From the NCBI RefSeq assembly GCF_900129455.1, contig NZ_FQVU01000001.1, positions 806,001-870,000 of the forward strand: DNA of 64,000 nucleotides, in the 5' to 3' direction. Position numbers and translations under genes: made by a program. Within the stretch, counting starts at the first letter, position 1; each line of letters opens with the position of its first letter. Of this stretch, positions 10,048 through 40,946 are shown one piece after another. The notes under the pieces are model-generated. The model saw only the letters and a list, made by a program, of their open reading frames with translations. It was not told where the DNA came from and made no database searches. Source of the DNA: Jatrophihabitans endophyticus. Lineage in GTDB: Bacteria > Actinomycetota > Actinomycetes > Mycobacteriales > Jatrophihabitantaceae.

Positions 10048-10866
10048 ATGACCGGCTCCACCGCACTGGGCGAGTACCTGCGCGCCCGCCGGGCGCTCGT
10101 CGACCCGGCCGACGTCGGCCTCACGACGGCGGGCGTGCGCCGCACCCCGGGCCTGCGTCGCGAGGAGGTCGCCACGCTTGCCGGCATCAGCGCCGACTAC
10201 TACCTGCGCCTCGAGCAGGGACGCGACCGCAACCCGTCGACGCAGGTGCTCGAGGCGCTGGCGCGGGTGCTCCGGCTCGACGCCGCGGCGACGCAGTACC
10301 TGCTCGGGCTCCCGGCCGCCCGGCCGCCGGCCCGGCGCCGGGCCCGGCGGGACACGGTGCCGGTGGGGATCCGCCTGCTGCTCGACACGCTGACCCTGCC
10401 CGCGTTCGTCGAGAACCGCCGCTTCGACGTCATCGCCGCCAATCGCCTGGCGAGCGCCGTGTCGCCCGCGATCAGGGTCGGCGGGAACCGGGTGCGGGCC
10501 GTGCTGCTCGACGACGCGGAGCGCGATCTCTGGGTGGACTGGGAGGAAGTCGCGGCGTCCATGGTGGCCTCGCTGCGCACCTCGATCGGCACCGACGACG
10601 ACCCCGCCACCGCCCAGCTCGTGGGCGAGCTGTCGCTCGCGAGCGAGACCTTCCGCCAGCACTGGGCACGTCACGACGTGCGGGCCCTGGGCGGCGGGGT
10701 CATCCGTATGCGGCACCCCCAGGTCGGCGATCTCGAACTGCGGCGCGAGAAGCTGCCGATTCCCGACACGGCCGGGCAGCTGCTGGCGATCTACCACGCC
10801 GAGCCGGGCTCCCCGAGCGCCCAGGCCCTCGCCCTGCTCGGCACCCTGGCTGCGGCGCCGACGTGA
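10048..10866 (+). CDS. XRE-family regulator with MmyB-like ligand domain
   Basis: The 272-residue protein has an N-terminal helix-turn-helix (GVRRTPGLRREEVATLAGIS...YYLRLEQGRDRNPS) typical of the MmyB/SCO-type XRE regulators. The C-terminal domain (about residues 105-265, LPAFVENRRFDVIAANRLASAV ... LWVDWEEVAASMVASLR) is the PAS-like MmyB ligand-binding fold, reported in relatives to bind fatty-acid-like molecules. Such regulators usually control a divergent oxidoreductase; here the aldo/keto reductase at 9079-9945 fits that pattern exactly. Confidence 0.9.
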   Translation: MTGSTALGEYLRARRALVDPADVGLTTAGVRRTPGLRREEVATLAGISADYYLRLEQGRDRNPSTQVLEALARVLRLDAAATQYLLGLPAARPPARRRARRDTVPVGIRLLLDTLTLPAFVENRRFDVIAANRLASAVSPAIRVGGNRVRAVLLDDAERDLWVDWEEVAASMVASLRTSIGTDDDPATAQLVGELSLASETFRQHWARHDVRALGGGVIRMRHPQVGDLELRREKLPIPDTAGQLLAIYHAEPGSPSAQALALLGTLAAAPT

Positions 10867-23291: not shown

Positions 23292-24272
23292 GTGCTGACC
23301 GGCGACACCGCGTGCCCCAAGCGCATGGTGTTCGGCCCGTGCGGCGGCGTCCGGCCGGACGGTGCCTGCGAGATGGTGGCCATGCCGTGCGTGTTCCCGG
23401 AGCCGGTGCTGCGTCCCGACCGGGTCGCCGGGGTCGCGCCCGGCACGGCACCGCGCGTGCTCGCCGACGTCAGCTCGCCGCCCTTCGACGTCGCCGGCCT
23501 GCGCCGCGTGGCCACGCTGCTGCGCGACAGCAGCGACGCGCTTCTCGTCGGTGAGCACCACAACCGCCCGGACTTCCCGCCCACCGTGGTGGCCCGCATC
23601 CTGCAGGACGAGGGCTGCCGGCCCTGGATCACGCTCGCCTGCCGGGACCGCAACCGCGTCGTGCTGGAGCAGGAGCTGCGCGGCCTGCAGTTGAGCGGCG
23701 TCGACACCGTGCTGTGCGTGACCGGCGACGGCCGCGGCCCGGACGTCCGCCCCGACGTCACGCAGGTGTGGGATCTCGACGGGCCCCGCCTCGCGGAGCT
23801 CGCCGCGTCGCTCGGGCTGTGCGCGGCCGTGCCCGAGACCCCGACCGCACCACCCATCGTCGGCCGACCGGCCCGGCTCGCCGCCAAGGAGCGCTCGGGG
23901 GCGGGCATCGCGGTGCTGAACCACGTCCGCGAGCCGGGGCAGGTGGCGCGATTCATGGCGCAGGCGCATGCGGCCGGGCTCACCATCCCGGTGGTCGCCG
24001 CCGTGGCCGCCTTCACCGACGCCGAGTCGGCCGCCGCGCTGCAGCGACTGCCCGGCCTCGAGCTCGATCCCGAGGTCGTGGCTGCGGTGCTCGCGTCGGC
24101 CGATCCGGTCGCGGCCGGGATCTCCGCCGCGGTCGACGAGGCCGCGGCCCTGCTCGCGATCGACGGCGTCGTCGGGGTGAACGTCTCGGGCCTCGCGTCG
24201 TCCCGGGGCTGGGACCACGCCGCCGAGGTGAAGGCGGCCATCGGCGCCCGGATCAAGGAGCTGGTCGTATGA
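23292..24272 (+). CDS. methylenetetrahydrofolate reductase-like protein with N-terminal Cys cluster
   Basis: The 326-residue protein starts with TACPKRMVFGPCGGVRPDGACE, the cysteine cluster of the MTHFR C-terminal/zinc-finger domain found in acetogen and actinobacterial MTHFR-related proteins. After it comes a TIM-barrel of MTHFR type (ITLACRDRNRVVLEQELRGLQLSGVDTVLCVTGDG). MTHFR makes 5-methyltetrahydrofolate with NADH or another donor. The position of the Cys domain ahead of the barrel, and the ATGA overlap with a methyltransferase gene, suggest use of the methyl group nearby. The GTG start has a weak ribosome site. Confidence 0.8.
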   Translation: MLTGDTACPKRMVFGPCGGVRPDGACEMVAMPCVFPEPVLRPDRVAGVAPGTAPRVLADVSSPPFDVAGLRRVATLLRDSSDALLVGEHHNRPDFPPTVVARILQDEGCRPWITLACRDRNRVVLEQELRGLQLSGVDTVLCVTGDGRGPDVRPDVTQVWDLDGPRLAELAASLGLCAAVPETPTAPPIVGRPARLAAKERSGAGIAVLNHVREPGQVARFMAQAHAAGLTIPVVAAVAAFTDAESAAALQRLPGLELDPEVVAAVLASADPVAAGISAAVDEAAALLAIDGVVGVNVSGLASSRGWDHAAEVKAAIGARIKELVV

Positions 24273-25377: not shown

Positions 25378-26184
25378 TCAGTCGGCCGGCGCGTCCTTCA
25401 GGTAGAGGTAGTAGTAGGCGCCGCCGACGAACACGCCGGCCCCGACGGCGTTGCCGAGGAACGCGAAGATCAGGTTCAGCACCATGTCGCCGCCGGTGAT
25501 GCCGGTGTTCTCGAAGATCGCGAGCGGCAGGAAGAACATGTTGGCGACGACGTGGTCGAAGCCGAGCGCGACGAACGCGGTGATCGGGAAGACGATGGCG
25601 AGGATCTTGCCGCCGACGGTGGTGGCCGCGAGGGCGAGCCAGACGGCGAGGCACACCAGCCAGTTGCAGCCCAGCGCGCGCAGGAACTGCTCCAGGTGGG
25701 TCTCGGTCATGCCCTTGCCGGCGGCGATGGCCTGCAGCCGGATCCAGGACGACCCCGCCGACCCGGGTGCCCCCTGCTTGATCACGCCCGTCTTGTCGGC
25801 CAGCACGTAGGCCACGAACAACGACCCGGCGAAGTTGCCGATGGTGACCCAGAGCCAGTTCAGCAGCACCCGCACCACGCTGACCTTGCCGGCGAACACG
25901 GCCATCGGGCCCAGCGCCATGTTGCCGGTCAGCAGCTCGGCACCGCCGATCACGACGAGGATGAGGCCCAGGCTGAACACGAGACCGGTGACGACCGTGA
26001 CCAGCCCGCCCCACGTCTTCGGGTCGAGCCCGGACGATGCCACGATCGCCAGCAGGCCTCCGAACGCGATGTAGGCGCCGGCGAGGAAGCCGCCGATCAG
26101 CGCCTTCGGCGGCGGCAGCAGCGTCTTGGTCGTCCCGCTCGCGACGGCGGCCGCCGCGACGGCAGGGGGCGCGTTGTAGCTCAT
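25378..26184 (-). CDS. focA: formate/nitrite channel (FocA family)
   Basis: The 268-residue protein is a FocA/NirC-family channel with six predicted membrane spans. It includes KALIGGFLAGAYIAFGG, the GGAELLTGN signature, a cytoplasm-facing NFAGSLFV, and the conserved GCNWLVCLAVW. FocA channels carry formate (or nitrite) across the membrane as pentamers. The gene is divergent from the formate dehydrogenase operon at 26340, across a 155-bp shared promoter region, which argues for formate as substrate and shared regulation. It would feed formate to, or release it from, the dehydrogenase. Confidence 0.9.
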   Translation of the reverse strand: MSYNAPPAVAAAAVASGTTKTLLPPPKALIGGFLAGAYIAFGGLLAIVASSGLDPKTWGGLVTVVTGLVFSLGLILVVIGGAELLTGNMALGPMAVFAGKVSVVRVLLNWLWVTIGNFAGSLFVAYVLADKTGVIKQGAPGSAGSSWIRLQAIAAGKGMTETHLEQFLRALGCNWLVCLAVWLALAATTVGGKILAIVFPITAFVALGFDHVVANMFFLPLAIFENTGITGGDMVLNLIFAFLGNAVGAGVFVGGAYYYLYLKDAPAD

Positions 26185-26339
26185 GTCGACGTTCCTCTCC
26201 GCAGGTCAGCGTCCGACGTCGGGCGGCTTACCCCGGCCGCAGCACGGGAACGCCGCGTCCCGGCGATCACTTCGCCCGATCAGGGGGTAGCGTCGTCACC
26301 GCGTCGAGACGAACGGCGCCGACCTCGTGGGGGAACCCG

Positions 26340-29300
26340 GTGGCTCTGGGCAAGACGTTCCTCGGCTGGCCGGTCGTCCGGCAGCTGACCGGCGCCGACC
26401 GTCTCGGTCGCGGCGCCGCCGCGCAGTCGGCCGCCACGCGTGAGCGGGTGGCCCGCACCGAGACCGCCGACCGTGTCGTCAAGAGCATCTGCCCCTACTG
26501 TGCCGTCGGCTGCGGCCAGCGCGTGTACGTCAAGGACGAGAAGGTCGTCCAGATCGAGGGTGACCACGACTCCCCCATCTCGCGCGGTCGGCTCTGCCCG
26601 AAGGGCTCGGCGAGCGAGCAGCTCGTCAACTCCCCCGGCCGGCAGACGGCGATGCTCTACCGGCGGCCCTACGCGACCGAGTGGGAACCGCTCGATCTCG
26701 AGACGGCCACCGACATGCTCGTCGACCGCATCCTCGACACCCGGTCTCGCACCTGGCAGGACGAGTGCGAGGGCAAGACCGTCCGACGCACGCTCGGGAT
26801 CGCCGCGCTCGGCGGCGCGACGCTGGACAACGAGGAGAACTACCTGATCAAGAAGATCTTCACGGCCATGGGTGCCGTGCAGATCGAGAACCAGGCCCGG
26901 ATTTGACACAGCGCCACCGTCCCCAGTCTGGGGGCTTCCTTCGGTCGTGGCGGGGCCACCACCTTCCAGCAGGACCTGCAGCACTCCGACTGCATCGTCA
27001 TCCAGGGCTCGAACATGGCCGAGTGCCACCCGGTCGGGTTCCAGTGGGTGATGGAGGCGAAGAAGCGCGGCGCCAAGGTCATCCACATCGACCCGCGGTT
27101 CACGCGGACGTCGGCGGTGTCGGACCTGCACGTCCCGCTGCGGGCCGGTAGCGACATCGCGTTCCTGGGCGGGATCGTCAACTACATCCTGAGCAACGGG
27201 AAGTGGTTCGACGAGTACGTGAAGGCGTACACGAACGCCTCGACGATCGTCGGCGCGGACTTCGTCGACACCGAGGACCTCGACGGCCTGTTCAGCGGGT
27301 ACGACCCCGAGACCGGCACCTACGACACCGCGTCGTGGCAGTACGACGGGGTCGAGGAGGTCGCGGCCGGCGGGCAGCGCGAGCTCTCCGACGAGGAGAA
27401 GGCGCAGGGACCCGACGGCGCCGAGACCAGCGAGGGCGAGGGCGACGTGTCGCGCCGCGAGCGCGGGGCGGCGTACGAGATGGGCGGGCACGGCGCGTCG
27501 CTGCACCACGCCGAGGTCAAGCGCGACGAGTCGCTGCAACACCCGCGCTGCGTTTTCCAGATCCTCAAGCGTCACTACGCCCGGTACAGCCCAGAGATGG
27601 TGGCACGGGTGTGCGGCGTCCCCGTGGAGCAGTTCCTCGAGGTCTGCGAGGCCGTCACCGCCAACAGCAATCGCGAGCGGACGACGTCCTGGGTGTACTC
27701 GGTCGGCTGGACGCACCACTCGGTCGGCGTGCAGTACATCCGCGGCTCGGCCATCATCCAGCTGTTGCTGGGCAACATGGGGCGGCCGGGCGGTGGCATC
27801 CTCGCCCTGCGCGGTCATGCCAGCATCCAGGGCTCGACCGACATCCCCACCCTGTTCAACCTGCTGCCGGGCTACCTGCCGATGCCCAAGTCAGGCGAGC
27901 ACGACACGCTCGACGACTACATCGCGACCATCACGTCACCTGCGCAGAAGGGTTTTTGGGCAGAAGCACGCAAATTCACGGTGTCGCTGCTCAAGTCGTA
28001 CTGGGGCGACGCCGCGACGGCCGACAACGACTACTGCTTCGACTACCTGCCCAAGCTCACCGGCGACCACAGCACTTATCCCACGGTGATGGGCATGCTC
28101 GCCGACGAGGTCGAGGGCTACTTCCTGCTCGGGCAGAACCCCGCGGTGGGCTCGGCGCACGGGAAGATGCAGCGCCTGGGCATGTCGCACCTGAAGTGGC
28201 TCGTCGTCCGCGACCTGAACATGATCGAGTCGGCGACGTTCTGGAAGGACGGTCCGGAGATCGAGACCGGCGAACTGCGCACTGAGGACATCGGCACCGA
28301 GGTGTTCTTCTTCCCGGCCGCGTCCCACGTCGAGAAGGACGGCACGTTCACGCAGACGCAGCGCGTGCTGCAGTGGCACCACAAGGCGATCGAGCCCCCG
28401 GGCGACTGTCGCAGCGACCTGCACTTCTTCTTCCACCTCGGCCGCAAGCTGCGCGAGCGGCTGGCGACCTCGACCGAGGAGCGCGACCGGCCGCTGCTGG
28501 ACCTCACCTGGGACTACCCGACCGAGGGCCCGCTCGCGGACCCGTCGGCCGACGCGGTCCTGCAGGAGATCAACGGTCGCCACCTCGCCGGCGACAAGGC
28601 CGGCCGGCCGCTCGACTCGTACCTGGCGATGGCCGACGACGGGTCGACCTCGGGCGGTTGCTGGATCTACACCGGCGTCTACGCCGACGGCGTGAACCAG
28701 GCCGCGCGTCGCAAGCCGGGCCGTGAGCAGTCCTGGGTCGCGCCCGAATGGGGCTGGGCGTGGCCGGCGAACCGGCGCATCCTCTACAACCGGGCCTCCG
28801 CCGACCCGGAGGGTCGGCCGTGGAGCGAGCGCAAGGCCTACGTCTGGTGGGACGAGGAACAGGGCAAGTGGACGGGGCACGACATCCCCGACTTCGTCCC
28901 CGACAAGGCGCCCGGTTACCGACCGGAACGCGGCACGGGCGGGGTCGAGGGCCTCGCCGGCGACGACCCGTTCATCATGCAGGCCGACGGCAAGGCGTGG
29001 CTCTACGCGCCGACCGGGCTGCTCGACGGCCCGCTGCCGGCGCACTACGAACCGGCCGAGTCGCCGGTGCGCAATCCGCTCTACCGGCAGCAGGCCAACC
29101 CGACCCGCCAGGTCTTCAAACGCAAGGACAACCTGCAGAACCCGTCGCCGCCGGAGTTCGCCGCCGACGTCTTCCCCTACGTGTTCACCACGTACCGGCT
29201 CACCGAGCACCACACGGCCGGCGGCATGAGCCGGTGGCTGCCGTTCCTGGCCGAGTTGCAGCCGGAGTTCTTCTGCGAGGTATCGCCCGAGCTCGCACGG

Positions 29301-29678
29301 GAACGACAGCTGCAGCACCTCGGCTGGGCCACCATCGTGACGGCCCGGACGGCCATCGAGGCGCGGGTGCTGGTCACCGATCGGATGACGCCGCTGCGGA
29401 TCGGGGCCGACGGCGACACCAAGGTCGTCCATCAGGTGGGGTTGCCGTACCACTGGGGCGTGGGGTCGTCCGCACTCGTGAGCGGCGACTCCGCGAACGA
29501 CCTGTTCGGTGTCACCCTGGACCCCAACGTGCACATCCAGGAGTCGAAGGTCGCGTCCTGCGACATCCAACCGGGGCGCCGCCCCACCGGGCCGGCCCTG
29601 CTGCGCTACGTCGCGGAGTACCAGAGCCGCGCGGGCATCACGGTGGAGACCGGCAACCAGCGACGGACGGAGAGCTGA
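26340..29678 (+). CDS. selenocysteine-containing formate dehydrogenase catalytic (alpha) subunit
   Basis: The gene reads through an in-frame TGA at 26904-26906, giving 1112 residues with selenocysteine at position 189 in QIENQARI-Sec-HSATVPSLGASFGRG. This is the exact place where FdnG/FdoG-type enzymes have Sec, which ligates molybdenum or tungsten together with the bis-MGD cofactor. Other marks are the [4Fe-4S] motif SICPYCAVGCGQ ... GRLCPKGSAS, VIQGSNMAECHPV, and the C-terminal GLPYHWGVG. A SECIS-like hairpin follows the UGA. A GTG start at 26340 fits family members that begin with WPVVRQLTG. No twin-arginine signal is seen, so the catalytic side probably faces the cytoplasm. The ATG of the beta subunit overlaps the stop. 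A hydrophilic insert (27364-27510) separates two core regions. Confidence 0.95.
26912..26952 (+). promoter_or_regulatory. bacterial SECIS element for UGA recoding
   Basis: Downstream of the UGA, GTCCCC (26919-26924) pairs with GGGGGC (26930-26935) around a 5-nt apical loop AGUCU. It carries the GU that SelB recognises in E. coli SECIS elements. The stem starts 12 nt after the UGA, within the normal window. A second helix, CGCCAC (26912-26917) with GTGGCG (26947-26952), extends the structure with an asymmetric internal loop. All lies inside the coding sequence. Confidence 0.85.
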
Positions 29679-30703
29679 TGGCGTCGCATCGCCGCGACCC
29701 CGACCCCCGGGTCGCGCAGCGGGCGGGCTGGGAGGACCCGCCGCCGCGCAAGGGCTTCTTCACCGACACGTCGATCTGCATCGGCTGCAAGGCGTGCGAG
29801 GTCGCCTGCAAGGAGTGGAACGGCGTCCCCGACGACGGGTTCAACCTGCTCGGGTCCTCGTACGACAACACCGGCGCGCTCGGCGCCTCCACGTGGCGGC
29901 ACGTCGCGTTCATCGAGCAGCCCAAGGAGCTGCCCGGGGTCGACCCGGGGCTGCGCGGCACCCCGGTCGGCCCCCCGGCCACCGACGCCGTCAACGCCGC
30001 CGCCGACGACGCGCTGACCGGTGAGCGCACCGCGCTGGGCACCGACACCACCAAGGTCTCGCTCGGTATGCCGTCGTTCGACCTCCCCGGCTCCGCCGAC
30101 CCCGACGGCAAGCGCACCGACTTCCGGTGGCTGATGTCGTCCGACGTCTGCAAGCACTGCACGCACGCGGCCTGCCTGGACGTGTGCCCGACGGGGTCGC
30201 TCTTCCGCACGGAGTTCGGCACCGTCGTCGTGCAGGACGACATCTGCAACGGCTGCGGCTACTGCGTGCCCGCCTGCCCGTTCGGCGTCATCGACCGGCG
30301 CATCGGCGACAAGGGGACGAAGAACGTCGGCATCGCCCAGAAGTGCACGCTGTGCTACGACCGGCTCGGCGCGGGCAAGACACCGGCGTGCGCGCAGGCC
30401 TGCCCCACCGAGTCGATCCAGTTCGGCGATCTCGACGAGTTGCGCGAGCGCGCTCAACGACGTGTCGAGGCCCTGCACGAGCGCGGGGTGACCGACGCCC
30501 GCCTGTACGGGGAGAGTCCCGACGACGGCATCGGCGGGGCCGGCGCGATGTTCCTGCTGCTCGACGAGCCGGAGGTCTACGGCCTGCCGCCGGACCCGGT
30601 CGTCACCACCCGTGACCTGCCCGCGATGTGGCGGCAGGCGGGGCTGGCCGCCGCAGGCCTGCTGGCCGCGGCCGTCACCTCGTTCCTGGGGCGGCGGCGG
30701 TGA
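29678..30703 (+). CDS. formate dehydrogenase beta subunit (four-cluster ferredoxin)
   Basis: The 341-residue protein has the arrangement of FdnH-type beta subunits. Four Cys clusters are visible: ICIGCKACEVACKEWN, VCKHCTHAACLDVCPTGSL, ICNGCGYCVPACPFGV, and CTLCYDRLGAGKTPACAQACPTESI. These hold four [4Fe-4S] clusters that pass electrons from the molybdenum site to the membrane subunit. An insert (about residues 65-140) lies between the first cluster and the rest. The C-terminus has one membrane-anchoring helix (LAAAGLLAAAVTSFLG). ATGA overlap links it to the alpha subunit and the next start overlaps its stop. Confidence 0.95.
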   Translation: MASHRRDPDPRVAQRAGWEDPPPRKGFFTDTSICIGCKACEVACKEWNGVPDDGFNLLGSSYDNTGALGASTWRHVAFIEQPKELPGVDPGLRGTPVGPPATDAVNAAADDALTGERTALGTDTTKVSLGMPSFDLPGSADPDGKRTDFRWLMSSDVCKHCTHAACLDVCPTGSLFRTEFGTVVVQDDICNGCGYCVPACPFGVIDRRIGDKGTKNVGIAQKCTLCYDRLGAGKTPACAQACPTESIQFGDLDELRERAQRRVEALHERGVTDARLYGESPDDGIGGAGAMFLLLDEPEVYGLPPDPVVTTRDLPAMWRQAGLAAAGLLAAAVTSFLGRRR

Positions 30704-31716
30704 CCGAGCAGGCGCCCGAGCGGGGTCGGCGACGTGGCCGAGGTCGCGGCCGGGGCTCCGCCGACGGCGCGCCGATGGTGCCGGACGTCGAGTTCACGTC
30801 GTACTACGGCCGTCCGGTCGTCAAGGTGGCGCCATGGACGGCCGACATCCCCGCCTACCTGTTCCTCGGCGGGCTCGCCGGCGGCTCGTCGCTGCTGGCC
30901 GCGGGTGCCGATCTCACCGGCCGGCCGGGGCTACGCCGGGTCGGCCGGCTCGGCGCCGCCGCCGGGATCACGCTGAGCTTCGGGGCGCTGGTCCACGACC
31001 TCGGCAGGCCGCTGCGGTTCCTCAACATGCTGCGGGTGGCCAAGCCGACGTCGCCGATGTCCACCGGCACCTGGATCCTCATGGGGTACGGACCCGCCGC
31101 GGGGATCGCCGGAGCGGCCGAGCTAGGCGAGCTGGTCCGCCCGTACCTGCCGCGGTCGCTGCGGTGGACGGTGCGGTTGCTCTCGGCGCTCGCGCCCTCT
31201 GCCGGCTTCGCGGCCGCGGTCGCCGCGCCGGCCGTCGCGTCCTACACCGCCGTGCTGCTCGCCGACACCGCCACACCGTCGTGGCACGAGGCCTACCGCG
31301 AGCTGCCGTTCGTGTTCGTCGGCTCGGCGGCCGCCGCGGCGGGCGGTCTCGGCATGCTGGCCGGGCCGCCGGCCGAGGCCGGCCCCGCCCGTCGGCTGGC
31401 CGCGGCCGGTGCCGTCGCCGAGCTCGTCGCGGAGCGCGTCATGGAGTCGTCCATGGGTGTGACGGCCGAGCCGCTGCACGAGGGGCGGGCGGGCGCACTG
31501 CTGCGAGCCAGCAAGGCCCTCACCGCGGGCGGTGCCCTGGTCGGCGCGCTGCTCGGGGGCCGCTCCCGCGTCGCCGCCGTGGCCGGCGGGGCCGCGCTGG
31601 TACTGGGCTCGGCCTGCACCCGGTTCGGCATCTTCGAGGCCGGGCAGGCGTCGGCTCGCGACCCGAAGTACACCGTCGTCCCGCAGCGCGAGCGCATTGC
31701 CGAGCGGGAGGCGTGA
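30700..31716 (+). CDS. NrfD/PsrC-like membrane subunit of formate dehydrogenase
   Basis: The 338-residue protein starts with an Arg/Gly-rich tail and has about eight membrane spans with the NrfD signature (APWTADIPAYLFLGGLAGGSS, LGRPLRFLNMLRVAKPTSPMS). NrfD subunits bind quinone and need no heme, unlike the cytochrome b gamma subunits of E. coli FDH-N. So this enzyme most probably passes electrons from formate to menaquinone through an NrfD subunit. The GTG start at 30700 overlaps the beta-subunit stop. A separate fdhD gene for sulfuration of the cofactor was not found in the window. Confidence 0.88.
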   Translation: MTEQAPERGRRRGRGRGRGSADGAPMVPDVEFTSYYGRPVVKVAPWTADIPAYLFLGGLAGGSSLLAAGADLTGRPGLRRVGRLGAAAGITLSFGALVHDLGRPLRFLNMLRVAKPTSPMSTGTWILMGYGPAAGIAGAAELGELVRPYLPRSLRWTVRLLSALAPSAGFAAAVAAPAVASYTAVLLADTATPSWHEAYRELPFVFVGSAAAAAGGLGMLAGPPAEAGPARRLAAAGAVAELVAERVMESSMGVTAEPLHEGRAGALLRASKALTAGGALVGALLGGRSRVAAVAGGAALVLGSACTRFGIFEAGQASARDPKYTVVPQRERIAEREA

Positions 31717-31884: not shown

Positions 31885-32874
31885 TCAGCGGACGGTGAGC
31901 ACGGTGTCGCCGGCCGCGACCGTCTCGCCGACGACCGGGGCGCCCGGCACCTCGCCGACCACGAGTAGGCCGCCGCTGGTCTGGGCGTCGGCGAGCAGCA
32001 GCAGCTCGTCCTCGGGCACGGTGGCCGCGAGGTGCGGGCGCACCCAGTCCAGGTTGCGCTTCGTGCCGCCGCTGACGAAGCCGTCGCGGAGCGCGTCACG
32101 GGCACCGTCGAGGTACGGGACGGCGGCCGCGTGGACCACCGCCGATACCCCGGACGCCCGCGCGAGCTTGTAGAGGTGGCCGAGCAGCCCGAAACCGGTG
32201 ACGTCGGTGGCCGCCTCGGCCCCGGCGGCCAGCGCCGCCACCGACGCATCGGCGTTCAGCGCGACCATCGACTCGATCGCCTGGGGAAAGACCTCGCCGG
32301 TGCTCTTGTGCCGGTTGTTGAGCACGCCGACGCCCAACGGCTTGGTGAGGCTGACGGGCAGGCCGGGACGCGCCGCGTCGTTGCGCAGCAGCCGCGCCGG
32401 ATCGGCCACCCCGGTGACGGCCATGCCGTACTTGGGCTCGGGGTCGTCGATGCTGTGACCGCCGCCGACGTGGCAGCGCGCCTGCCGTGCGACGTCCAGA
32501 CCGCCGCGCAGCACCTCGCGCAGCAGCTCGGTGGGCAGCACGTCGCGGGGCCAGCCGACGAGGTTCACCGCGACCAGCGGCCGTCCGCCCATCGCGTAGA
32601 CGTCCGACAGCGCGTTGGCGGCGGCGATGCGGCCGAAGGTGTAGGCGTCGTCCACCACCGGGGTGAAGAAGTCCGCGGTCGTGACCACCGCGGTGCGCTC
32701 GTCGATCACCACCACCGCCGCGTCGTCGCCGTCGTCGAGCCCCACGAGCAGGTCCGGCGACGGCGGCCCGACGAGGTCGCGGACCACGTCCTCGAGCTCA
32801 CCCGGCGGGATCTTGCAGGCGCAGCCCCCACCGTGGGCGTACTGCGTGAGGCGGACGGCGTCGGTCTTCGTCAC
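31885..32874 (-). CDS. selD: selenophosphate synthetase
   Basis: The 329-residue protein has the SelD opening LTQYAHGGGCACKIPPGEL. The catalytic residue is Cys18 (where some homologues have Sec) with Lys21, matching E. coli Cys17/Lys20. Later motifs include LLVGLDDGDDAAVV, ATDVTGFGLLGHLYKLARASG and DAQTSGGLL. SelD makes selenophosphate from selenide and ATP, the donor for tRNA-Sec synthesis. The GTG start at 32874 fits the family N-terminus. It converges on the FDH operon and lies 111 bp downstream of the GGDEF-EAL gene, on the same strand. It works with selA, selB and selC nearby. Confidence 0.95.
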   Translation of the reverse strand: MTKTDAVRLTQYAHGGGCACKIPPGELEDVVRDLVGPPSPDLLVGLDDGDDAAVVVIDERTAVVTTADFFTPVVDDAYTFGRIAAANALSDVYAMGGRPLVAVNLVGWPRDVLPTELLREVLRGGLDVARQARCHVGGGHSIDDPEPKYGMAVTGVADPARLLRNDAARPGLPVSLTKPLGVGVLNNRHKSTGEVFPQAIESMVALNADASVAALAAGAEAATDVTGFGLLGHLYKLARASGVSAVVHAAAVPYLDGARDALRDGFVSGGTKRNLDWVRPHLAATVPEDELLLLADAQTSGGLLVVGEVPGAPVVGETVAAGDTVLTVR

Positions 32875-32985
32875 CCGCTCGACCGTACGCGGCGTGCGGG
32901 TGTGCGGTCGGCGGCGACCAGACCCTGCTCCCGCCGTCTTTCCCGGCCGGGCGCGCGGCGCGGCAGACCGCCGGCACCGCACGGG

Positions 32986-35541
32986 TCAGGCCGACGCCCG
33001 GTCGTCCAGCAGACGCGGCCGCGGCGAGCCGGCGAACGCGCTCTCGTCCAGCCAGCGGGCGAAGTCCGGCGCACTCAACGGCCGGGCGATCACGTACCCC
33101 TGCGCGACGTCGCAGCCGAGGACGCGCAGCTCGTCGAGCATCTCGGCCAGCTCTGCCCCCTCGGCCACGACGTGCAGGTCGAGGCTGCGGCACAGGCTGG
33201 TGATGGCGCTGATCAGCGCGCGGCTGTTGCGCGCGTCCTCCTGCTGGGCCAGCCCGAACACGAAGGAGCGGTCGATCTTGACCTCCTGCACTGGCAGCCG
33301 CTGCAGGTAGGACAGGCTGGAGTACCCGGTGCCGAAGTCGTCCAGCGAGATCCGCACACCCTGCGCGGCCAGCCGCGCGAGGACGCTGAGGGTCTGCGCC
33401 GGGTCGGCGATGACGCTGCTCTCCGTGATCTCGATGGTCAGCGACGAGCTGGGCACTCCGGCGCGGCGCAGGGCGGCGGCCACCTGCTGCGGCAGACGCG
33501 GATCGCCGACGTTGCGCGCGGACAGGTTGACGGCCACCCCGATGTCGCGGCCGGACTCGGCCCAGGCGCGGCACTCGTGCAGCGCCGCGTCCAGGATGAG
33601 CGGGGTGAACTGGTCGATGAGGCCGGCCGTCTCGGCAAGCGGGATGAAGCGGTCGGGCGACACGACGCCGAGGGTGGGGTGATGCCAGCGAACCAGGGCC
33701 TCGGCGCTGCAGACCGAGCGGCTGGCGAGGTCGATCTGCGGCTGGAAGTACACGGCGATGCGTTCCGGATGCTCCTGCAGGGTGGTCCGCAGGTCAGCCA
33801 GCAGCGCCAGCTTCTCCGTACGGTCGCGCTCCATGCGCGCGTCGTAGACGGCCACCCGGTCGTCGCCGCGCTTCGCCGCGTACATGGCGGTGTCCGCGTG
33901 ACGGAGCAGGTCCTTCGACAGCGCCGGGTCGACGCTGGTCGCGATGCCGATGCTCGCCGCCGCAGCGAGGACGACCTCGTCGATCACGATGGGCTCGGCG
34001 AGAGCGGCGACGATCTGCTCGGCGATGCAAACGGCCGACGCGGCGTCGTCGGCGGCCAGTGAGAAGCACGCCGCGAACTCGTCGCCGCCGAGCCGGGCCG
34101 CGACGGCGTCGGCCGGCAGCGCGGCGGCGAACCGGTCGGCCACCACCTGCAGCAACTGGTCGCCCGCACCGTGCCCGAGGCTGTCGTTGACCTCCTTGAA
34201 CTCGTCGAGGTCGAGCAGCAGCACCGCCGTGCGCGTCCCGTCGCCGATCGGGGTCTCGAGGATGCTGCGGGTCAGCCGGGCCCGGTTGGCCAAGCCGGTC
34301 AGGGTGTCGTGGGTCGCGTCGTAGGCCAGCCGCTCCACCATCTGCGCGCGCTCACCGGCCACCGCGAAATGGCTCGTCAAGGTCTGCAGCAGCCGCAGGT
34401 CGTCGTCGGTGAAGCTCGCGAGGTCGCCCATGCGGTCGGTCACGGTGATGACGCCACCGAGGCCGGCCGCGCCGGGCAGCGGAGCGACCATCGCGTCGCG
34501 GTAGCCGCGCTCGGTCAGCCACTTGCGCAGCGCCCGGTCGCGGGTCGTGCGCGGCACGACGAGCGACTCGTTGTCGGTCACCGCACGCATGGCGGTCCAG
34601 TCGAGGGCGGCCTGTTCGACGACGGCCGCGCTGAAGCCGGACTCGTCGCTGGTGAAGCGGGTGGCCTTGGCCCCGGCGCGCTGGTCGACGCCGGTCTCCG
34701 CGTCGAGGACCGTGACCTCGGCCCGGGCCGCCCGGAGCAGCGTCCGCACGCGCGCCAGCAGATCCTCGGTCGTGGCGGTGAGCGACGCGGTGCCGGCGCT
34801 GCCCGTGACGAACTCGTGGATGGTCTCCAGCTTGGTGTGACGCCGCGAGGCGACGAGGAAGCCGCGGTACATCGCGATGGCCGAGCCCGCCGTCACGACG
34901 ACGACGACCCACCCCACCACGCCCGCCCCGGCGAGCAGCACGATCCCGAACGTCGCCGACATCGTCACCGTCGCGAGCACGGCGGCGGGGACGAGGACCT
35001 CCGCCACGTCGCGGCGCGAGAGCGGCCCGTTGTGCATGCGGATGACGGCCAGGACCGCGCAGCTCATCAGCTGGTCGACGGCGACGGTGACCAGCAGTGC
35101 GACGGCGGCGAGCCCGAGATCGGGCCCGCTCCGCGTGCCCACCAGTGCGTGGATCGCCGCGGTGTCGACCGCGGCCTCGAAGCCGTACATGGACAGGTTG
35201 AAGAACGTCTTCTCCGGCCGCATCCGCTGGATCGCGAGCGCCGTTCCGGCGCCGAGGACACGTGCGGCGAGCACCACGGGCAGCGGCACCAGCAGCGCGC
35301 CCAGGACGAGCGGGATGCCGCCGAGCGTGAGCGAGTGGGCCTGCCTGCGGAACTCGATGTTGAGCAGGAACTGCTCACCCAGCAGGAACCCCACGAACAG
35401 GGCCGCGCCGAGCAACCAGGTGCTCGTCGACGTGCTCAGGGTGGCAGGCTGGCGGTACCCGACGGCGATGGCGATCGCCCCGGCGGCGAGCGCGACGCTC
35501 AGCTGCGTCGTGCGGCGCCGGGCCCGCGACGTGGAGCTCAT
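32986..35541 (-). CDS. membrane GAF-GGDEF-EAL protein (c-di-GMP turnover)
   Basis: The 851-residue protein has about six N-terminal membrane spans (residues about 12-230), then a GAF-like sensor domain (about 245-390). A GGDEF domain follows (about 405-560, RLGGDEFAACF), then an EAL domain (about 585-830, SAEALVRWHH, NLSARNV, EITESSV, DDFGTGYSSL). Both catalytic motifs are intact, so either synthesis or breakdown of cyclic di-GMP is possible. The inhibitory RxxD motif that usually precedes GGDEF by five residues is absent, so product inhibition is not expected. It begins only 3 bp after the end of the S8 protease gene on the same strand, so the two are co-transcribed. Confidence 0.92.
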   Translation of the reverse strand: MSSTSRARRRTTQLSVALAAGAIAIAVGYRQPATLSTSTSTWLLGAALFVGFLLGEQFLLNIEFRRQAHSLTLGGIPLVLGALLVPLPVVLAARVLGAGTALAIQRMRPEKTFFNLSMYGFEAAVDTAAIHALVGTRSGPDLGLAAVALLVTVAVDQLMSCAVLAVIRMHNGPLSRRDVAEVLVPAAVLATVTMSATFGIVLLAGAGVVGWVVVVVTAGSAIAMYRGFLVASRRHTKLETIHEFVTGSAGTASLTATTEDLLARVRTLLRAARAEVTVLDAETGVDQRAGAKATRFTSDESGFSAAVVEQAALDWTAMRAVTDNESLVVPRTTRDRALRKWLTERGYRDAMVAPLPGAAGLGGVITVTDRMGDLASFTDDDLRLLQTLTSHFAVAGERAQMVERLAYDATHDTLTGLANRARLTRSILETPIGDGTRTAVLLLDLDEFKEVNDSLGHGAGDQLLQVVADRFAAALPADAVAARLGGDEFAACFSLAADDAASAVCIAEQIVAALAEPIVIDEVVLAAAASIGIATSVDPALSKDLLRHADTAMYAAKRGDDRVAVYDARMERDRTEKLALLADLRTTLQEHPERIAVYFQPQIDLASRSVCSAEALVRWHHPTLGVVSPDRFIPLAETAGLIDQFTPLILDAALHECRAWAESGRDIGVAVNLSARNVGDPRLPQQVAAALRRAGVPSSSLTIEITESSVIADPAQTLSVLARLAAQGVRISLDDFGTGYSSLSYLQRLPVQEVKIDRSFVFGLAQQEDARNSRALISAITSLCRSLDLHVVAEGAELAEMLDELRVLGCDVAQGYVIARPLSAPDFARWLDESAFAGSPRPRLLDDRASA

Positions 35542-35544
35542 GCG

Positions 35545-37296
35545 CTAGGCCCAGGCGGCGGCGGACCAGCGCGCGGAGTCCCAGTCCGCGTCCGACCAGC
35601 GGGCAGACGACCAGCGAGCGGACGACCAGCGAGCGGACGACCAGCGGGCGGACGACCAGCGAGCCGAGTCCCAGTCCGCGTCCGACCACCGTGCCGACGA
35701 CCAGCGGGCGGACGACCAGCGCGCCGCGTCCCAGGAGGAGCCGGTTCGCCACCCGGTGCCGGTCCAGATCGCGCCGTTCCACGAGCCGCCGTCCCACGCG
35801 TTCGCCGCGGACGCGGCTGCCCACCAGGTCGCGCCGTCCCAGGGCTGCCCCTGCACGTCGATCTCGCCGGCGAGCTCGGTGCCCTCGGCATCGACGAGCC
35901 GGCTGCCACCGCGGGCCGCGTCGAGCGAGCCGGTGCCCGTGGCCGCCGGCCAGCTCTGCGTCACGGACGCGGTGGTGAGGCGTCCCAGGAGGCTGGTCAT
36001 CGACCGGGCGAGGTCCAGCGCGGAGGCGATGTTCAGCTGGCCGGCGCCGGCGTCGGCCGGAGCGGCGGCCACGTCGGTCGCGCTGCGTGTGAGCACGTAC
36101 TTGACCTGGTCCGGCGTCAGGTTCGGGTAGGCCTGCAGCAGCAGCGCCACCGCGCCCGAGACGACTGCGGCGGCCTGACTCGTGCCGCTGCCGCGGAACA
36201 GCCGGCCGGCGCTGTCGCCGTCCACCCGTCCCTCGGGGTGGTTCGTGTCCACGAAGGAGCCCGGGTCGCGCAGCGAGACGACGGAGCGTCCCGGCGCGAG
36301 GAGGTCGACGTGTCGTTGCGCCGAACCGGAGCTGCTGAAGTCCGCCACCGACGGCGTGGCCCAGCCGGCGACCGTGTCACCGCCGTCGGACGCGCCGACG
36401 GCGAGGACGTAGGGGTCGGTGGCCGGATCGGTGAGCCGCCCCGCGGAACGCCCCTCGTTGCCGCCCGAGACCACGACCACGAGGCCGTGACGCCACGCGT
36501 TCTCGACCGCCGCGGCGAGCGGGTCGACCTGGTAGGGCTGCACCGAGTCGGTGCCGTACGCGAGGTTGACGACACGGATGCGCGTCCCGTCGGCCGTGAC
36601 CGGGTGCTGGACGATCCAGTCGAGACCGGCGATGACCTGGCTGACGTCGGTGCTGCCGTCGGTCGTCGCCAGCTTGAGCGCCTCGACCTGGGCGTCGGGA
36701 GCGACACCGAGCTGGGTGTTCGGGTCCTGGGTGGCGAGCTTGGCCGACTTCGCGGCGGTGTCGCGGCCGGCGATGATGCCGGCCAGGTGCGTGCCGTGGC
36801 CGTAGGTGTCGGCGCCGTCGAGCACGCCGTTGGTCTCGACGGAGAGGTCCGGCCCGTAGGTGACCTTCCCCTGGCCGTCCAACCCGGACACGCGGGCGAC
36901 GCCGGAGTCGAGCAGGGCGACGGCGATTCCCTTGCCGGTGACGGCGTGGCCGGCGCTGTCGTTGCTCGCCCACACCCGGCGGGCGCCGATGGCGCGCTCG
37001 ACGGTGTACAGCGAGCCCGGGTCGGTGGCCGCGGCGTACTGCCCCGTGCTCACGGCAGCCTTGTCCGCCGCGTGGTCGCCCCAGAGCGCACCGCCGGATG
37101 CGAGCCAGTCGCGGGCGGCCTTCACGGCGGCGGTGACCGTCCCCGACGGAGCGTTCGGTGCGGCCGCGGCGGGCGCTCCCGGGGTGGCGACGACGAGCGT
37201 CGCGGCGGTCGCGGCGCCGAGGGCGACGGCCGCGGCACACCGTCCCCAGCGGGTGGTGTGCACCGACGTGCGGAGGGCCGTGCGTCGTGTCGTCAT
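35545..37296 (-). CDS. secreted subtilisin-like (S8) protease with C-terminal Trp pentapeptide repeats
   Basis: The 583-residue precursor has an Arg-rich start, a signal segment ending in PGAPAAAAPN, and an S8 domain. Its triad is Asp in IAVALLDSGV, His in YGHGTHLAGIIAG, and Ser in FRGSGTSQAAAVVSG. After the catalytic domain comes a spaced Trp region (AWDGGSWNGAIWTGTGW), then 12 uninterrupted pentads of type WSSAR with WSDAD/WDSAR variants. No wall anchor or other domain follows; the tail may bind sugar or wall polymer through regularly spaced Trp. The ATG at 37296 has a GGGGA ribosome site. The long open frame upstream is antisense chance over selA. The protease is co-transcribed with the GGDEF-EAL gene. 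Confidence 0.85.
   Translation of the reverse strand: MTTRRTALRTSVHTTRWGRCAAAVALGAATAATLVVATPGAPAAAAPNAPSGTVTAAVKAARDWLASGGALWGDHAADKAAVSTGQYAAATDPGSLYTVERAIGARRVWASNDSAGHAVTGKGIAVALLDSGVARVSGLDGQGKVTYGPDLSVETNGVLDGADTYGHGTHLAGIIAGRDTAAKSAKLATQDPNTQLGVAPDAQVEALKLATTDGSTDVSQVIAGLDWIVQHPVTADGTRIRVVNLAYGTDSVQPYQVDPLAAAVENAWRHGLVVVVSGGNEGRSAGRLTDPATDPYVLAVGASDGGDTVAGWATPSVADFSSSGSAQRHVDLLAPGRSVVSLRDPGSFVDTNHPEGRVDGDSAGRLFRGSGTSQAAAVVSGAVALLLQAYPNLTPDQVKYVLTRSATDVAAAPADAGAGQLNIASALDLARSMTSLLGRLTTASVTQSWPAATGTGSLDAARGGSRLVDAEGTELAGEIDVQGQPWDGATWWAAASAANAWDGGSWNGAIWTGTGWRTGSSWDAARWSSARWSSARWSDADWDSARWSSARWSSARWSSARWSSARWSDADWDSARWSAAAWA
35554..35733 (-). repeat. in-gene 15-bp tandem repeat coding Trp pentapeptides
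   Basis: Twelve consecutive 15-bp units encode W[SD][SAD]A[RDA] pentads of the S8 protease tail. A higher-order pattern is visible: WSDAD-WDSAR pairs separate runs of WSSAR. Such repeats expand and contract easily by slippage or recombination. Confidence 0.85.
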
Positions 37297-37449
37297 GCGG
37301 GTCCCCATCCATGGGATCGTCATTCCTAACACGAAACTTACACGATCGCGGTGTCTCGTCCACAACCGGGTCGGCCGCGACGGACGCGGCTGACCGCCGC
37401 CGGGTCGCGTCCGTTGACGCTCGGACGGGGGCCCGGAGACACTGGCGCC

Positions 37450-37728
37450 GTGGTGGGGGACGTGCTGGCCGGGTTGTGCGCCGGCCTCGTCATCGGGGTC
37501 GTGGAGCAGCTGACCAGGACGGCCTGGGCCGTGCGGCGATTGCGCCCCTGGATGCTCGAGGCCGTCGACCGTGTCGTGCTCTTCGTCGCGATCGTGGGCG
37601 TGGTGCGGGTCGTCGGCGCCGCGCCGCTGTGGCGCACGCTCGTCGCCGCGGCGGGCATGGCTGCGACGGTGGTGCTGGTCCGGCTCGTCACCCGAGGCTC
37701 GGTGCGGGCGGAGTCGCGCTCGGGCTGA
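37450..37728 (+). CDS. small two-span membrane protein of unknown function
   Basis: From the GTG at 37450 the product has 92 residues with two hydrophobic segments (DVLAGLCAGLVIGVVEQLT and VVLFVAIVGVVRVVGAAPLW ... LVAAAGMAATVVLVRLVT) and Arg-rich ends. It lies just 33 bp upstream of tRNA-Sec on the same strand. No family is recognised. The gene is divergent from the S8 protease. Start choice is uncertain because the frame continues upstream. Confidence 0.5.
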   Translation: MVGDVLAGLCAGLVIGVVEQLTRTAWAVRRLRPWMLEAVDRVVLFVAIVGVVRVVGAAPLWRTLVAAAGMAATVVLVRLVTRGSVRAESRSG

Positions 37729-37761
37729 TCGCCGGTCGTGCGGCTGGGTACGGTCGTGCGC

Positions 37762-37857
37762 GGAGGCGTACAGGTGCCTGGTGGCCCTCCCGGTCTTCAA
37801 AACCGGTGGAGCCGAGCAACTCGGTTCGGCGGGTTCGATTCCCGTCCGCCTCCGCCA
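37762..37857 (+). tRNA. selC: tRNA-Sec(UCA)
   Basis: A 96-nt tRNA with CCA encoded at 37855-37857 shows the selenocysteine tRNA form. The acceptor GGAGGCG pairs with CGCCTCC. The anticodon arm CCGGT-CTTCAAA-ACCGG presents UCA for reading UGA. The D arm is long and a large variable arm is formed by GCCGAG/CTCGGT. The T arm is CGGG-TTCGATT-CCCG. The discriminator is G. It sits 24 bp upstream of selA, the usual arrangement, and reads the in-frame UGA of the formate dehydrogenase. Confidence 0.95.
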
Positions 37858-37881
37858 CGGACCACGTTGGAGGACGCGCGC

Positions 37882-39168
37882 ATGACCGACCCGCGCCGCG
37901 CGGTGCCGCGCACCGACGCCGTGCTGGCCGATCCGCGCCTCGTCGCCGCGGCGGCGCGCCTCGGCCGCGCGGACGTGAAGCGCGTCGTCGCCGAGACACT
38001 GGCCGACGTGCGGGCCGGGACGCTCGTGGCCGGCGATCCCGGTGACGTGGCCGACGTCGTCGTACGGCGACTCCCGACGCCGCCGCGCCGGGTGATCAAC
38101 GCGACCGGCGTGGTGCTGCACACGAACCTCGGCCGGGCGCCGCTGTCGGCCGAGGCGCTGACCGCCGTGGGCGCCGCGGCCGGGTACACCGACGTGGAGT
38201 TCGACCTCGCCACGGGCCGGCGCGCACCGCGCGGTCGGGGCGCGCTCGCGGCGCTGGCCGCCGCGGTGCCCGGCGCGGGCGGGGTGCTCGTGGCCAACAA
38301 CGGCGCGGCCGCGCTCGCTCTCGCCACCACCGCGCTGGCGGGCGGGCGCGAGGTCGTGGTCAGCCGCGGCGAGATGGTGGAGATCGGCGACGGGTTCCGG
38401 CTCCCGGACCTCGTCGAGTCCACCGGCGTCCGGCTGCGGGAGGTGGGGACGACGAACCGGGTGACCGTCGCGGACTACGCCGCGGCGGTCGGCCCGGGCA
38501 CCGGGGCGATCCTCAAGGTGCACCCGAGCAACTTCCGCATCGAGGGCTTCACCGGCTCGGTGGCGGTGCGCGAGCTCGCCGCATTGACGCCGCCGGTGAT
38601 CGTGGACGTCGGCAGCGGACTGCTCGCCCCGCACCCGCTGCTGCCCGACGAACCCGATGTCGCGGGCGCGGTCGCTGCGGGTGCCGCCGTCGTCACCTGC
38701 AGCGGTGACAAGCTGCTCGGCGGTCCGCAGGCGGGTCTGCTGTTCGGCACCGCCGAGATGATCGCGACGCTGCGCCGGCATCCGCTCTACCGCGCGTTCC
38801 GCGTCGACAAGCTCACCCTCGCCGCCCTCGAGGCCACCGTCCGGATGCCGGCCAACCCGACCTGGCGGGCGCTGACCGCCGACGCCCACGGCCTCGAACA
38901 GCGATGCGGCCGCGTTGCCCGGGGCGTCGGCGGCGAGGTGGCGACGCACGACGGCGCGGTCGGCGGCGGCAGCGCGCCCGGGACGACGCTCGCCGGCTGG
39001 GCCGTGTCGCTGCCGGCGGCGCTGGCACCGGCGCTGCGCACCGGCGAACCGCCCGTGGTGGGCCGGATCCTGGACGACCGGCTGCTGCTCGACCTGCGCT
39101 GCGTCGACCCCGACGACGACGACGTCCTCGTCGCGGCCGTCGCGGCCGCTCGCCGGGCGGCGGGGTAG
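37882..39168 (+). CDS. selA: L-seryl-tRNA(Sec) selenium transferase
   Basis: The 428-residue PLP enzyme converts Ser-tRNA-Sec into Sec-tRNA-Sec using selenophosphate. Family marks are RVINATGVVLHTNLGRAPLS, VLVANNGAAALAL, GEMVEIGDGFRLPDL, and TCSGDKLLGGPQAG with the PLP-binding Lys277. The ATG has GGAGGA at 7-nt spacing and is 24 bp after tRNA-Sec. The GTG of selB overlaps its stop by one base, so selA and selB are coupled. It works as a decamer in E. coli. Confidence 0.96.
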   Translation: MTDPRRAVPRTDAVLADPRLVAAAARLGRADVKRVVAETLADVRAGTLVAGDPGDVADVVVRRLPTPPRRVINATGVVLHTNLGRAPLSAEALTAVGAAAGYTDVEFDLATGRRAPRGRGALAALAAAVPGAGGVLVANNGAAALALATTALAGGREVVVSRGEMVEIGDGFRLPDLVESTGVRLREVGTTNRVTVADYAAAVGPGTGAILKVHPSNFRIEGFTGSVAVRELAALTPPVIVDVGSGLLAPHPLLPDEPDVAGAVAAGAAVVTCSGDKLLGGPQAGLLFGTAEMIATLRRHPLYRAFRVDKLTLAALEATVRMPANPTWRALTADAHGLEQRCGRVARGVGGEVATHDGAVGGGSAPGTTLAGWAVSLPAALAPALRTGEPPVVGRILDDRLLLDLRCVDPDDDDVLVAAVAAARRAAG

Positions 39169-40946
39169 TGCACGTCCTCGCCACCGCCGGGCACGTCGAC
39201 CACGGCAAGTCGACGCTCGTGCGCGCCCTCACCGGCATGGAGCCCGACCGCTTCGCCGAGGAGAGGCGGCGTGGCCTCACCATCGACCTCGGCTATGCGT
39301 GGACGACGCTCCCGTCCGACGAGGAGATCGCGTTCGTCGACGTCCCCGGGCACCAGCGCTTCATCGCCAACATGCTGGCCGGCCTCGGCCCGGCGCCGGC
39401 GGTGCTGTTCGTCGTCGCCGCGGACGAGGGGTGGTCGCGGCAGTCCGGCGAGCACCTGGCCGCGATCGACGCGCTGCAGGTCCGGCACGCGGTCCTCGCC
39501 GTCACCCGGGCCGACCTGGCCGATCCCGCCCCGGCCCTCGCGGACGCGGCGGCCCGGCTGGCGGCGACCAGCCTCGGCACCGTCGACGCGGTCGCGGTCT
39601 CCGGGGCGACCGGCGCCGGGCTCGCCGCGCTGCGGACGGCCCTCGACCGGCTGGTGGCCTCGCTCCCCCTGCCGGACGCCCTCGCCCCGGTTCGGCTCTG
39701 GCTCGACCGGAGCTTCAGCATTCGGGGTGCCGGCACCGTCGTGACGGGGACGCTCGCGGCCGGCTCGGTCGGGGTGGGTGACACGCTCGCCCTGCGCGAG
39801 GGCACGGTGACGGTCCGCGGCGTGCAGAGCACCGGCACCGAGCTCGACCGCGTCGACGGGGTGGCGCGGGTCGCGCTCAACCTCCGCGGCACCAAGCCCG
39901 ACGCCGTCGGCCGTGGCGACGTCCTGCTCACCCCCGACGCCTGGCACCGCACCGACGCGCTCGACGTCCGGCTCACCGCCACCGAGGACGCCCTGCCGGC
40001 CGAGCTCGTCCTGCACGTCGGGACGGCGGCGGTGCCCGTGCGGGTCCGGCCCCTGGACCCGTCCGCCACCCTCGCCCGCCTCACGCTGGCCGAGGCGCTG
40101 CCCTTGCGCGCGGGCGACCGCGCCGTGCTGCGCGATCCCGGCCGGCAGGCGGTGGCCGCCGGCGTCCTCGTGCTGGACGCCGATCCGCCGTCACTGCGTC
40201 GGCGCGGCGCCGCGCGGGCCCGGGCCGGCGAGCTCGTGGGCGCCACCGGAACGCCGGACGTGACCGTCGAGGTGGGTCGCCGGGGCGTCGCACGCCGGGA
40301 CCACCTCGCACGGCTGGGCGTGCCGGTCGGCGAGGCGGACCTCGCTCCGGGTGCGGTACGCGCGCTCGGCGACTGGCTGGTGGCCGATCCGACCTGGCGG
40401 CGCTGGGTCGCGAACGCGCCGGCGGTGCTGGCCACCCGGGCGCGGTCGCATCCGCTGGACCCCTCCCCCAGCCTCGGCGCCTTCGGCCGTGCGCTCGCAC
40501 TGCCCGACGACGCGGTGCTCGTCCGCGCCGTCGTGGCCGCCGCGGGGCTGCGGGTAGGCGACGGCCGGGTGGAGCAGCCGGGCGCACGCCCCGCCCCGCA
40601 GGACGTCCATCCCGGCATCCGCGCCCTCGTCGACCGGCTCGCCGGCGCTCCGTTCGCGGCCCCCGAACGTGACGAGCTCGCCGAGCTCGGGCTCGGGCCC
40701 CGCCAGCTCGCTGCGGCGGCGAAGGCCGGGCTGGTGGTGCGTCTCGGCGGGGACGTCGTCCTCGCCGCCGACGCCGCCGCCCGCGCCACGACCGTCCTCG
40801 CCGGTCTCGAGCAGCCGTTCACCGCCAGCGCCGCGCGCCAGGCGCTCGGCACCACCCGCCGCGTCGCGATCCCGCTGCTCGAGCACCTCGACCACGTCGG
40901 GGTGACCGTCCGCGTCGACGCCACCCGGCGTCTCGTACGGTCGTGA
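39168..40946 (+). CDS. selB: selenocysteine-specific elongation factor
   Basis: The 592-residue GTPase begins ATAGHVDHGKSTLVRALTG (G1), then DVPGHQRFI (G3). The NKxD motif is replaced by TRAD (AVTRADL), as commonly seen in SelB. Two beta-barrel domains follow, then the winged-helix C-terminal half (about 370-592) that binds the SECIS RNA loop. SelB brings Sec-tRNA-Sec to the ribosome at UGA codons with a SECIS. The GTG start overlaps the selA stop. The C-terminal domains should match the AGUCU loop at 26925-26929. Confidence 0.95.
   Translation: MHVLATAGHVDHGKSTLVRALTGMEPDRFAEERRRGLTIDLGYAWTTLPSDEEIAFVDVPGHQRFIANMLAGLGPAPAVLFVVAADEGWSRQSGEHLAAIDALQVRHAVLAVTRADLADPAPALADAAARLAATSLGTVDAVAVSGATGAGLAALRTALDRLVASLPLPDALAPVRLWLDRSFSIRGAGTVVTGTLAAGSVGVGDTLALREGTVTVRGVQSTGTELDRVDGVARVALNLRGTKPDAVGRGDVLLTPDAWHRTDALDVRLTATEDALPAELVLHVGTAAVPVRVRPLDPSATLARLTLAEALPLRAGDRAVLRDPGRQAVAAGVLVLDADPPSLRRRGAARARAGELVGATGTPDVTVEVGRRGVARRDHLARLGVPVGEADLAPGAVRALGDWLVADPTWRRWVANAPAVLATRARSHPLDPSPSLGAFGRALALPDDAVLVRAVVAAAGLRVGDGRVEQPGARPAPQDVHPGIRALVDRLAGAPFAAPERDELAELGLGPRQLAAAAKAGLVVRLGGDVVLAADAAARATTVLAGLEQPFTASAARQALGTTRRVAIPLLEHLDHVGVTVRVDATRRLVRS

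Follow-up and report, generated by a model that had tools for sequence, protein, structure and literature searches.

A formate dehydrogenase gene of Jatrophihabitans endophyticus with an in-frame UGA predicted to encode selenocysteine

Background

Does the TGA at positions 26904-26906 of the Jatrophihabitans endophyticus DNA studied here end a protein, or does it specify a residue within one? The window (the whole 64,000-nucleotide stretch that was analyzed) had been given a sequence-only reading, which proposed a selenocysteine (Sec) formate dehydrogenase hidden as two broken reading frames. Our comparison with relatives supports the predicted Sec189, the SECIS-type hairpin and the full sel set of that proposal. 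We conclude, from the sequences compared, that 26340-29678 is very probably a single gene, for the catalytic subunit of a molybdopterin formate dehydrogenase, and that its UGA would be decoded as Sec189.

Comparable systems have been described. In the published annotation of Corynebacterium aurimucosum (2010; PMC2830990), a UGA-interrupted fdnG is clustered with sel genes, selA, selB, selC and selD being present; the window resembles it in this clustering and differs in genus and source. According to the published description of Actinomycetospora chiangmaiensis FDH1 (2020; PMC7176365), the cluster reads FdhA1-FdhB1-FdhC1-permease-SelA-SelB with a Sec-containing FdhA of about 1080 residues, and added selenite nearly abolishes formate accumulation, that is, formate removal is selenium-dependent. 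The sections of PMC5029168 that we consulted describe how the Sec trait was transferred between actinobacteria, for example from Nakamurella to Arthrobacter. Because of the published clusters (PMC2830990, PMC7176365, as far as these are described) and of full-length coding sequences annotated by NCBI in two relatives, the Sec formate dehydrogenase gene is almost certainly a correct and ordinary finding, its arrangement being well known in actinobacteria. Its main relevance is to annotation accuracy: a Sec-blind tool splits fdhA and drops the catalytic residue.

Results and discussion

A single reading frame with one internal stop

The coordinates of all features are collected in Table 1. No stop other than the TGA at 26904-26906 lies inside the frame, which is therefore continuous apart from this codon, as had been claimed. 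The codon is flanked by QIENQARI on one side and HSATVPSLGASFGRG on the other. A plain listing of open reading frames yields an upstream piece at 26037-26906 (289 residues, or 188 from GTG 26340) and a downstream piece at 27015-29678 (887 residues). GTG 26340 is preceded, at 5 nt, by GGGGGA, and it is probably near the correct start of fdhA, since residue 7 aligns with position 3 of the family profile NF041513, where the alignment begins. The open frame extends upstream to 26037; this extension is Arg-rich, is not covered by the family profile and in part overlaps the divergent transporter gene.

The prediction that automatic gene calling loses the Sec residue is true of such a plain listing, but not of NCBI annotation, which has a dedicated family (NF041513) and gives full-length coding sequences in the two relatives examined. 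Arthrobacter sp. YA7-1 and Tsukamurella tyrosinosolvens are annotated actinobacterial relatives with a UGA copy; the codon was read as TGA in both, and each gene is annotated as a single coding sequence (3333 and 3165 nt, respectively).

Table 1. Features of the predicted formate dehydrogenase and sel region (window coordinates)
Feature	Position	Strand	Remarks
Formate/nitrite transporter family protein, likely formate channel	25378..26184	-	Divergent from fdhA; PF01226 233.3 bits; TIGR00790 215.9 bits, below cut-off 232.3
fdhA, formate dehydrogenase alpha subunit	26340..29678	+	GTG start, stop TGA 29676-29678; 1112 residues with UGA read through; NF041513
UGA codon, most likely Sec189	26904..26906	+	Aligns with 1kqf position 196 (X); UGA 90, UAG 8, Cys 19 among 117 copies
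SECIS-type hairpin	26919..26935	+	Stem GUCCCC/GGGGGC, loop AGUCU (26925-26929)
fdhB, 4Fe-4S dicluster electron-transfer subunit	29678..30703	+	Hydrophobic C-terminal stretch; TIGR01582 169.1 bits, below cut-off 334.7
fdhC, NrfD-type membrane subunit	30700..31716	+	Likely GTG start overlapping fdhB stop; ORF opens at 30628
selD, selenophosphate synthetase	31885..~32874	-	Cys, not Sec, in GGCACK motif; ORF opens at 32982, start uncertain
selC, tRNA-Sec	37762..37857	+	Anticodon UCA; RF01852, 79.7 bits
selA, L-seryl-tRNA(Sec) selenium transferase	~37882..39168	+	TIGR00474, 403.4 bits
selB, Sec-specific elongation factor	~39165..40946	+	TIGR00475, 261.5 bits; exact start uncertain

The read-through protein matches formate dehydrogenase catalytic subunits

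Read through the UGA, the protein matches NF041513 (NCBIfam formate_DH_Act, actinobacterial formate dehydrogenase) with 1969.8 bits against a cut-off of 1400, in one stretch that spans the UGA and covers almost the whole model (profile 3-1067 of 1067); this near full-length match reveals no notable difference from the family. It also exceeds the cut-off of the FDH-N alpha model TIGR01553 (955.7 bits versus 814.2). Escherichia coli FdnG (1kqf) is the best match among solved structures; its X at position 196, within NQARV-X-H, is the counterpart of residue 189. We take this X to be Sec, and His197 and Arg446 to be its active-site partners. The window protein has His and Arg aligned at these two positions, Arg491 being the counterpart of position 446, and resembles FdnG in the Sec site itself. 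His190 is conserved in 116/117 copies of the gene (see below), and Arg491 and Cys 51, 54, 58 and 86 in all 117; these residues presumably have active-site roles.

Whether the enzyme is 'FdnG-type', as had been stated, depends on what is compared. Enzymes of the FDH-N (FdnGHI) type have a Tat signal peptide on the alpha subunit and a cytochrome b gamma subunit: FdnG is Tat-exported and its partner is the cytochrome b FdnI. The label fits the sequence of the catalytic subunit, by its score with TIGR01553, but not the rest. The first 44 residues counted from GTG 26340 contain no twin-arginine motif, and a loose form of the pattern occurs in 1 of the 116 copies with at least 30 aligned residues in that region. 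Residues ~337-392 of the window protein fall outside the FdnG alignment. As for the gamma subunit, the third gene is NrfD-type and not a cytochrome b, NrfD (PF03916, 46.8 bits) being the only Pfam family that it matched. With a Tat signal not visible on FdhA, the active site is likely to face the cytoplasm.

The Sec site in relatives

The site was compared in 117 copies: the window, 80 loci kept of at least 589 confirmed relatives (at least 594 stretches), 30 best-match loci (from 296 genomes searched, 80 of which had a match over the cut-off) and six further loci, L115 and L118-L122, with L116-L117 left out. All 117 copies have UGA, UAG or a Cys codon at the site, and every copy with a sense codon has Cys (19/19). 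At the site of the in-frame UGA, homologues thus have Cys or Sec, the sign by which selenoproteins are recognized, and the alignment proposed earlier as a check returned the expected Sec/Cys column.

These counts bear on the idea that the gene is a pseudogene, or that the TGA is a sequencing error for a Cys codon. TGA is indeed one base away from TGC and TGT, and Cys is found at the site in 19 copies, yet UGA stands at the same codon in 90 of the 117, the frame has no other internal stop, the sel set in the window is complete, and the complete hairpin described below accompanies UGA or UAG but was seen in no Cys copy. We regard decay or error as extremely unlikely.

The eight UAG copies, from Modestobacter (six), Geodermatophilus and Blastococcus, have an intact hairpin (L016, L018, L019, L020, L022, L027, L032 and L080; codon at 10556 or 10559). 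For the Geodermatophilaceae, the part of PMC5330540 available to us reports both UAG-Sec in formate dehydrogenases and a tRNA-Sec whose anticodon is CUA; within the eight loci themselves ARAGORN found no tRNA genes. On a tree of the copies (FastTree, with one long branch, L122), three changes are needed among the UGA, UAG and Cys states, and the UAG copies form one side of a well-supported branch. Two of the label changes are to or from Cys; the tree gives them no direction, gain and loss being indistinguishable on it. FdhA and SelD are named in PMC1794560, in the portion consulted, as the proteins where Sec-to-Cys changes concentrate.

Other in-frame stops occur elsewhere in the genes of five relatives. 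One is at alignment position 1109, near the gene end, and L011, L044, L075 and L097 have an additional stop at residues 166, 640, 181 and 887, respectively (window numbering), from sequencing error, decay or something else.

Codons downstream of the UGA are under selection

A further possibility is that translation stops at 26904 and that a separate 887-residue protein begins at ATG 27015. Plain ORF listing gives both pieces, and AGGG lies 7 nt before this ATG; with such a start signal present, it is selection on the intervening codons, and not a missing signal, that argues against a second protein. Residues 190-225, whose 36 codons separate the UGA from ATG 27015, are under purifying selection: in 85 UGA relatives the median pN is 0.124 and the median pS 0.315, and a paired count finds pN equal to or above pS in only 2 of the 85. 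Moreover, these codons align to solved formate dehydrogenases, and a split would divide the active site. A second protein starting downstream, which had been named beforehand as the outcome that would overturn the Sec proposal, is accordingly given hardly any credence, and a single protein crossing the UGA is preferred.

A conserved hairpin after the UGA

The hairpin announced by the sequence-only reading, with its 5-nt AGUCU loop, is present: GTCCCC-AGTCT-GGGGGC (6 bp) begins at 26919, 12 nt past the UGA. The count of the hairpin was made in 111 copies, that is, the 115 records in which the site was first read minus L001 (the copy from the window itself) and L002-L004 (distant paralogue pieces from the same genome). 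All six pairs form in 83/86 UGA copies and 8/8 UAG copies, and in 0/17 Cys copies; the three remaining UGA copies have U-U at the second pair. The loop is RGUYU in 86/86 UGA copies. Thermomicrobium and the alphaproteobacterium Indioceanicola, about 48-51% identical, have the same kind of hairpin after the UGA.

The pair +15/+27 is informative, as it joins the wobble positions of Val194 and Gly198. Among 98 Sec-type copies it is C-G in 65, U-A in 25, U-G in 6 and G-C in 2, and never unpaired; the tree requires 15 changes or more. Among nine independent pairs with a 5'-side difference, a mean of 6.4 show the same kind of difference on the 3' side, 0 the opposite and 2.6 none; this covariation gives a modest sign test (median p 0.031; p from 0.016 to 0.125). 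Pro195 is CCC in 98/98 Sec-type copies, a codon that makes up 1691 of the 6155 remaining Pro codons, counted in 93 of these copies. Coding alone hardly accounts for the +15/+27 pairing and the invariant CCC.

Folding energy was tried as proof of a SECIS and dropped, as it is no better than that of shuffles and depends on where the stretch is cut. For a 55-nt stretch the z-score is +0.46, the best fold differs from the hairpin and 132 of 200 shuffles fold equally well or better; with the window sequence, the pair probabilities of the hairpin are 0.87-1.0 at 34, 40, 46 and 52 nt and 0.13-0.15 at 55 nt, while at 60 nt the best fold again contains it. In the window, at Rfam gathering scores, tRNA-Sec is the sole match and no SECIS family is found. 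The case for a SECIS-type function thus rests on conservation, without support from energy.

A pattern search for UGA, spacing and inner hairpin in the 4.48-Mb genome returned one match, fdhA itself, and none in the reversed control. This single match, together with UGA, UAG or Cys in 117/117 copies, places the Sec site and its hairpin beyond chance. No second gene with the fdhA pattern was found in the genome; since the pattern is narrow, other SECIS shapes would escape it.

In 18 of the 19 Cys copies, position 195 is Ala, Val or Ser, and there is no hairpin. A tentative interpretation, which we hold to be somewhat less probable than its opposite, is that the hairpin dictates the enzyme sequence: the RNA signal would hold a Pro195, near the active site, that the protein does not need, and each Sec-Cys exchange would free it.

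The sel genes and tRNA-Sec

As had been noted, selA, selB, selC and selD are all in the window; they lie at 31885-40946, downstream of fdhA. The likeness to A. chiangmaiensis FDH1, by its published description, extends to a Sec FdhA, an FdhB, a membrane gamma subunit, and selA and selB in the same cluster. Compared with that description, the window cluster differs in including selD and in having two unrelated genes between selD and selC, namely a GGDEF-EAL cyclic-di-GMP protein (32986-35541, minus strand) and a mycosin-like subtilase (35545 to ~37740, minus strand).

At E <= 0.001, tRNA-Sec is matched in 32/32 genomes and also in 14/14 control genomes, probably because other long-armed tRNAs match weakly, and we therefore used bit scores. 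A gap separates 69.3 from the next score, 51.1 bits, and the line was set at 69 bits after the scores had been seen. By this measure a strong tRNA-Sec is present in 17/17 genomes with a UGA copy versus 1/14 Cys-only genomes (Fisher p = 7e-8). One genome (G250), whose codon is unread, was left out of this 2x2 count; in another (G131) the UGA copy was deduced from the stop count, its second copy being Cys. The exception to the simple rule, G206 (L096), has a Cys-type formate dehydrogenase and a tRNA-Sec of 80.7 bits; as it keeps a strong tRNA-Sec despite its Cys-type enzyme, it may encode another selenoprotein.

These data also weigh on a third alternative, in which the UGA is read by a near-cognate tRNA (Trp or other) and not as Sec. 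A tRNA-Sec with anticodon UCA lies ~11 kb downstream beside selA and selB, the residue in sense-codon copies is always Cys, and the Geodermatophilaceae copies use UAG, for which PMC5330540, in the part seen, reports a CUA tRNA-Sec. Near-cognate reading is therefore highly improbable, and decoding as Sec is retained.

A probable membrane complex and its mechanism

The ATG of fdhB overlaps the stop of fdhA by one base. From this gene set, the Sec-decoding FdhA is most likely part of an FdhA-FdhB-NrfD membrane complex. In the mechanism that we propose, selA, selC and selD would supply the Sec-tRNA, and SelB, bound to the hairpin 13-29 nt downstream of the UGA, would deliver Sec-tRNA(Sec) to the ribosome. 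In the active site, Sec is most likely a ligand of Mo (or W), with His190 and Arg491 as neighbors. Electrons would flow from the 4Fe-4S cluster of FdhA through the clusters of FdhB and the NrfD-type membrane subunit into the quinone pool; formate may pass through the neighboring FocA-like channel. Besides the folding energy and the AGGG before ATG 27015, a further observation was counted against this explanation: the genome has a single FdhD-like match, outside the cluster, of 129.4 bits against a family cut-off of 140.9.

Arthrobacter sp. YA7-1 and T. tyrosinosolvens share the gene order fdhA-fdhB-nrfD-selD(-)-selC-selA-selB with the window. In the former, the whole fdhABC-selDCAB cluster (L115) is carried by plasmid pYA7-1a, which is typed as conjugative, and it adjoins a Tn3 family transposase. 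In the window, a plus-strand frame at 23292-24272, ~2 kb upstream of fdhA, has weak similarity to methylenetetrahydrofolate reductase and a DUF5981 piece, and possibly belongs to one-carbon metabolism.
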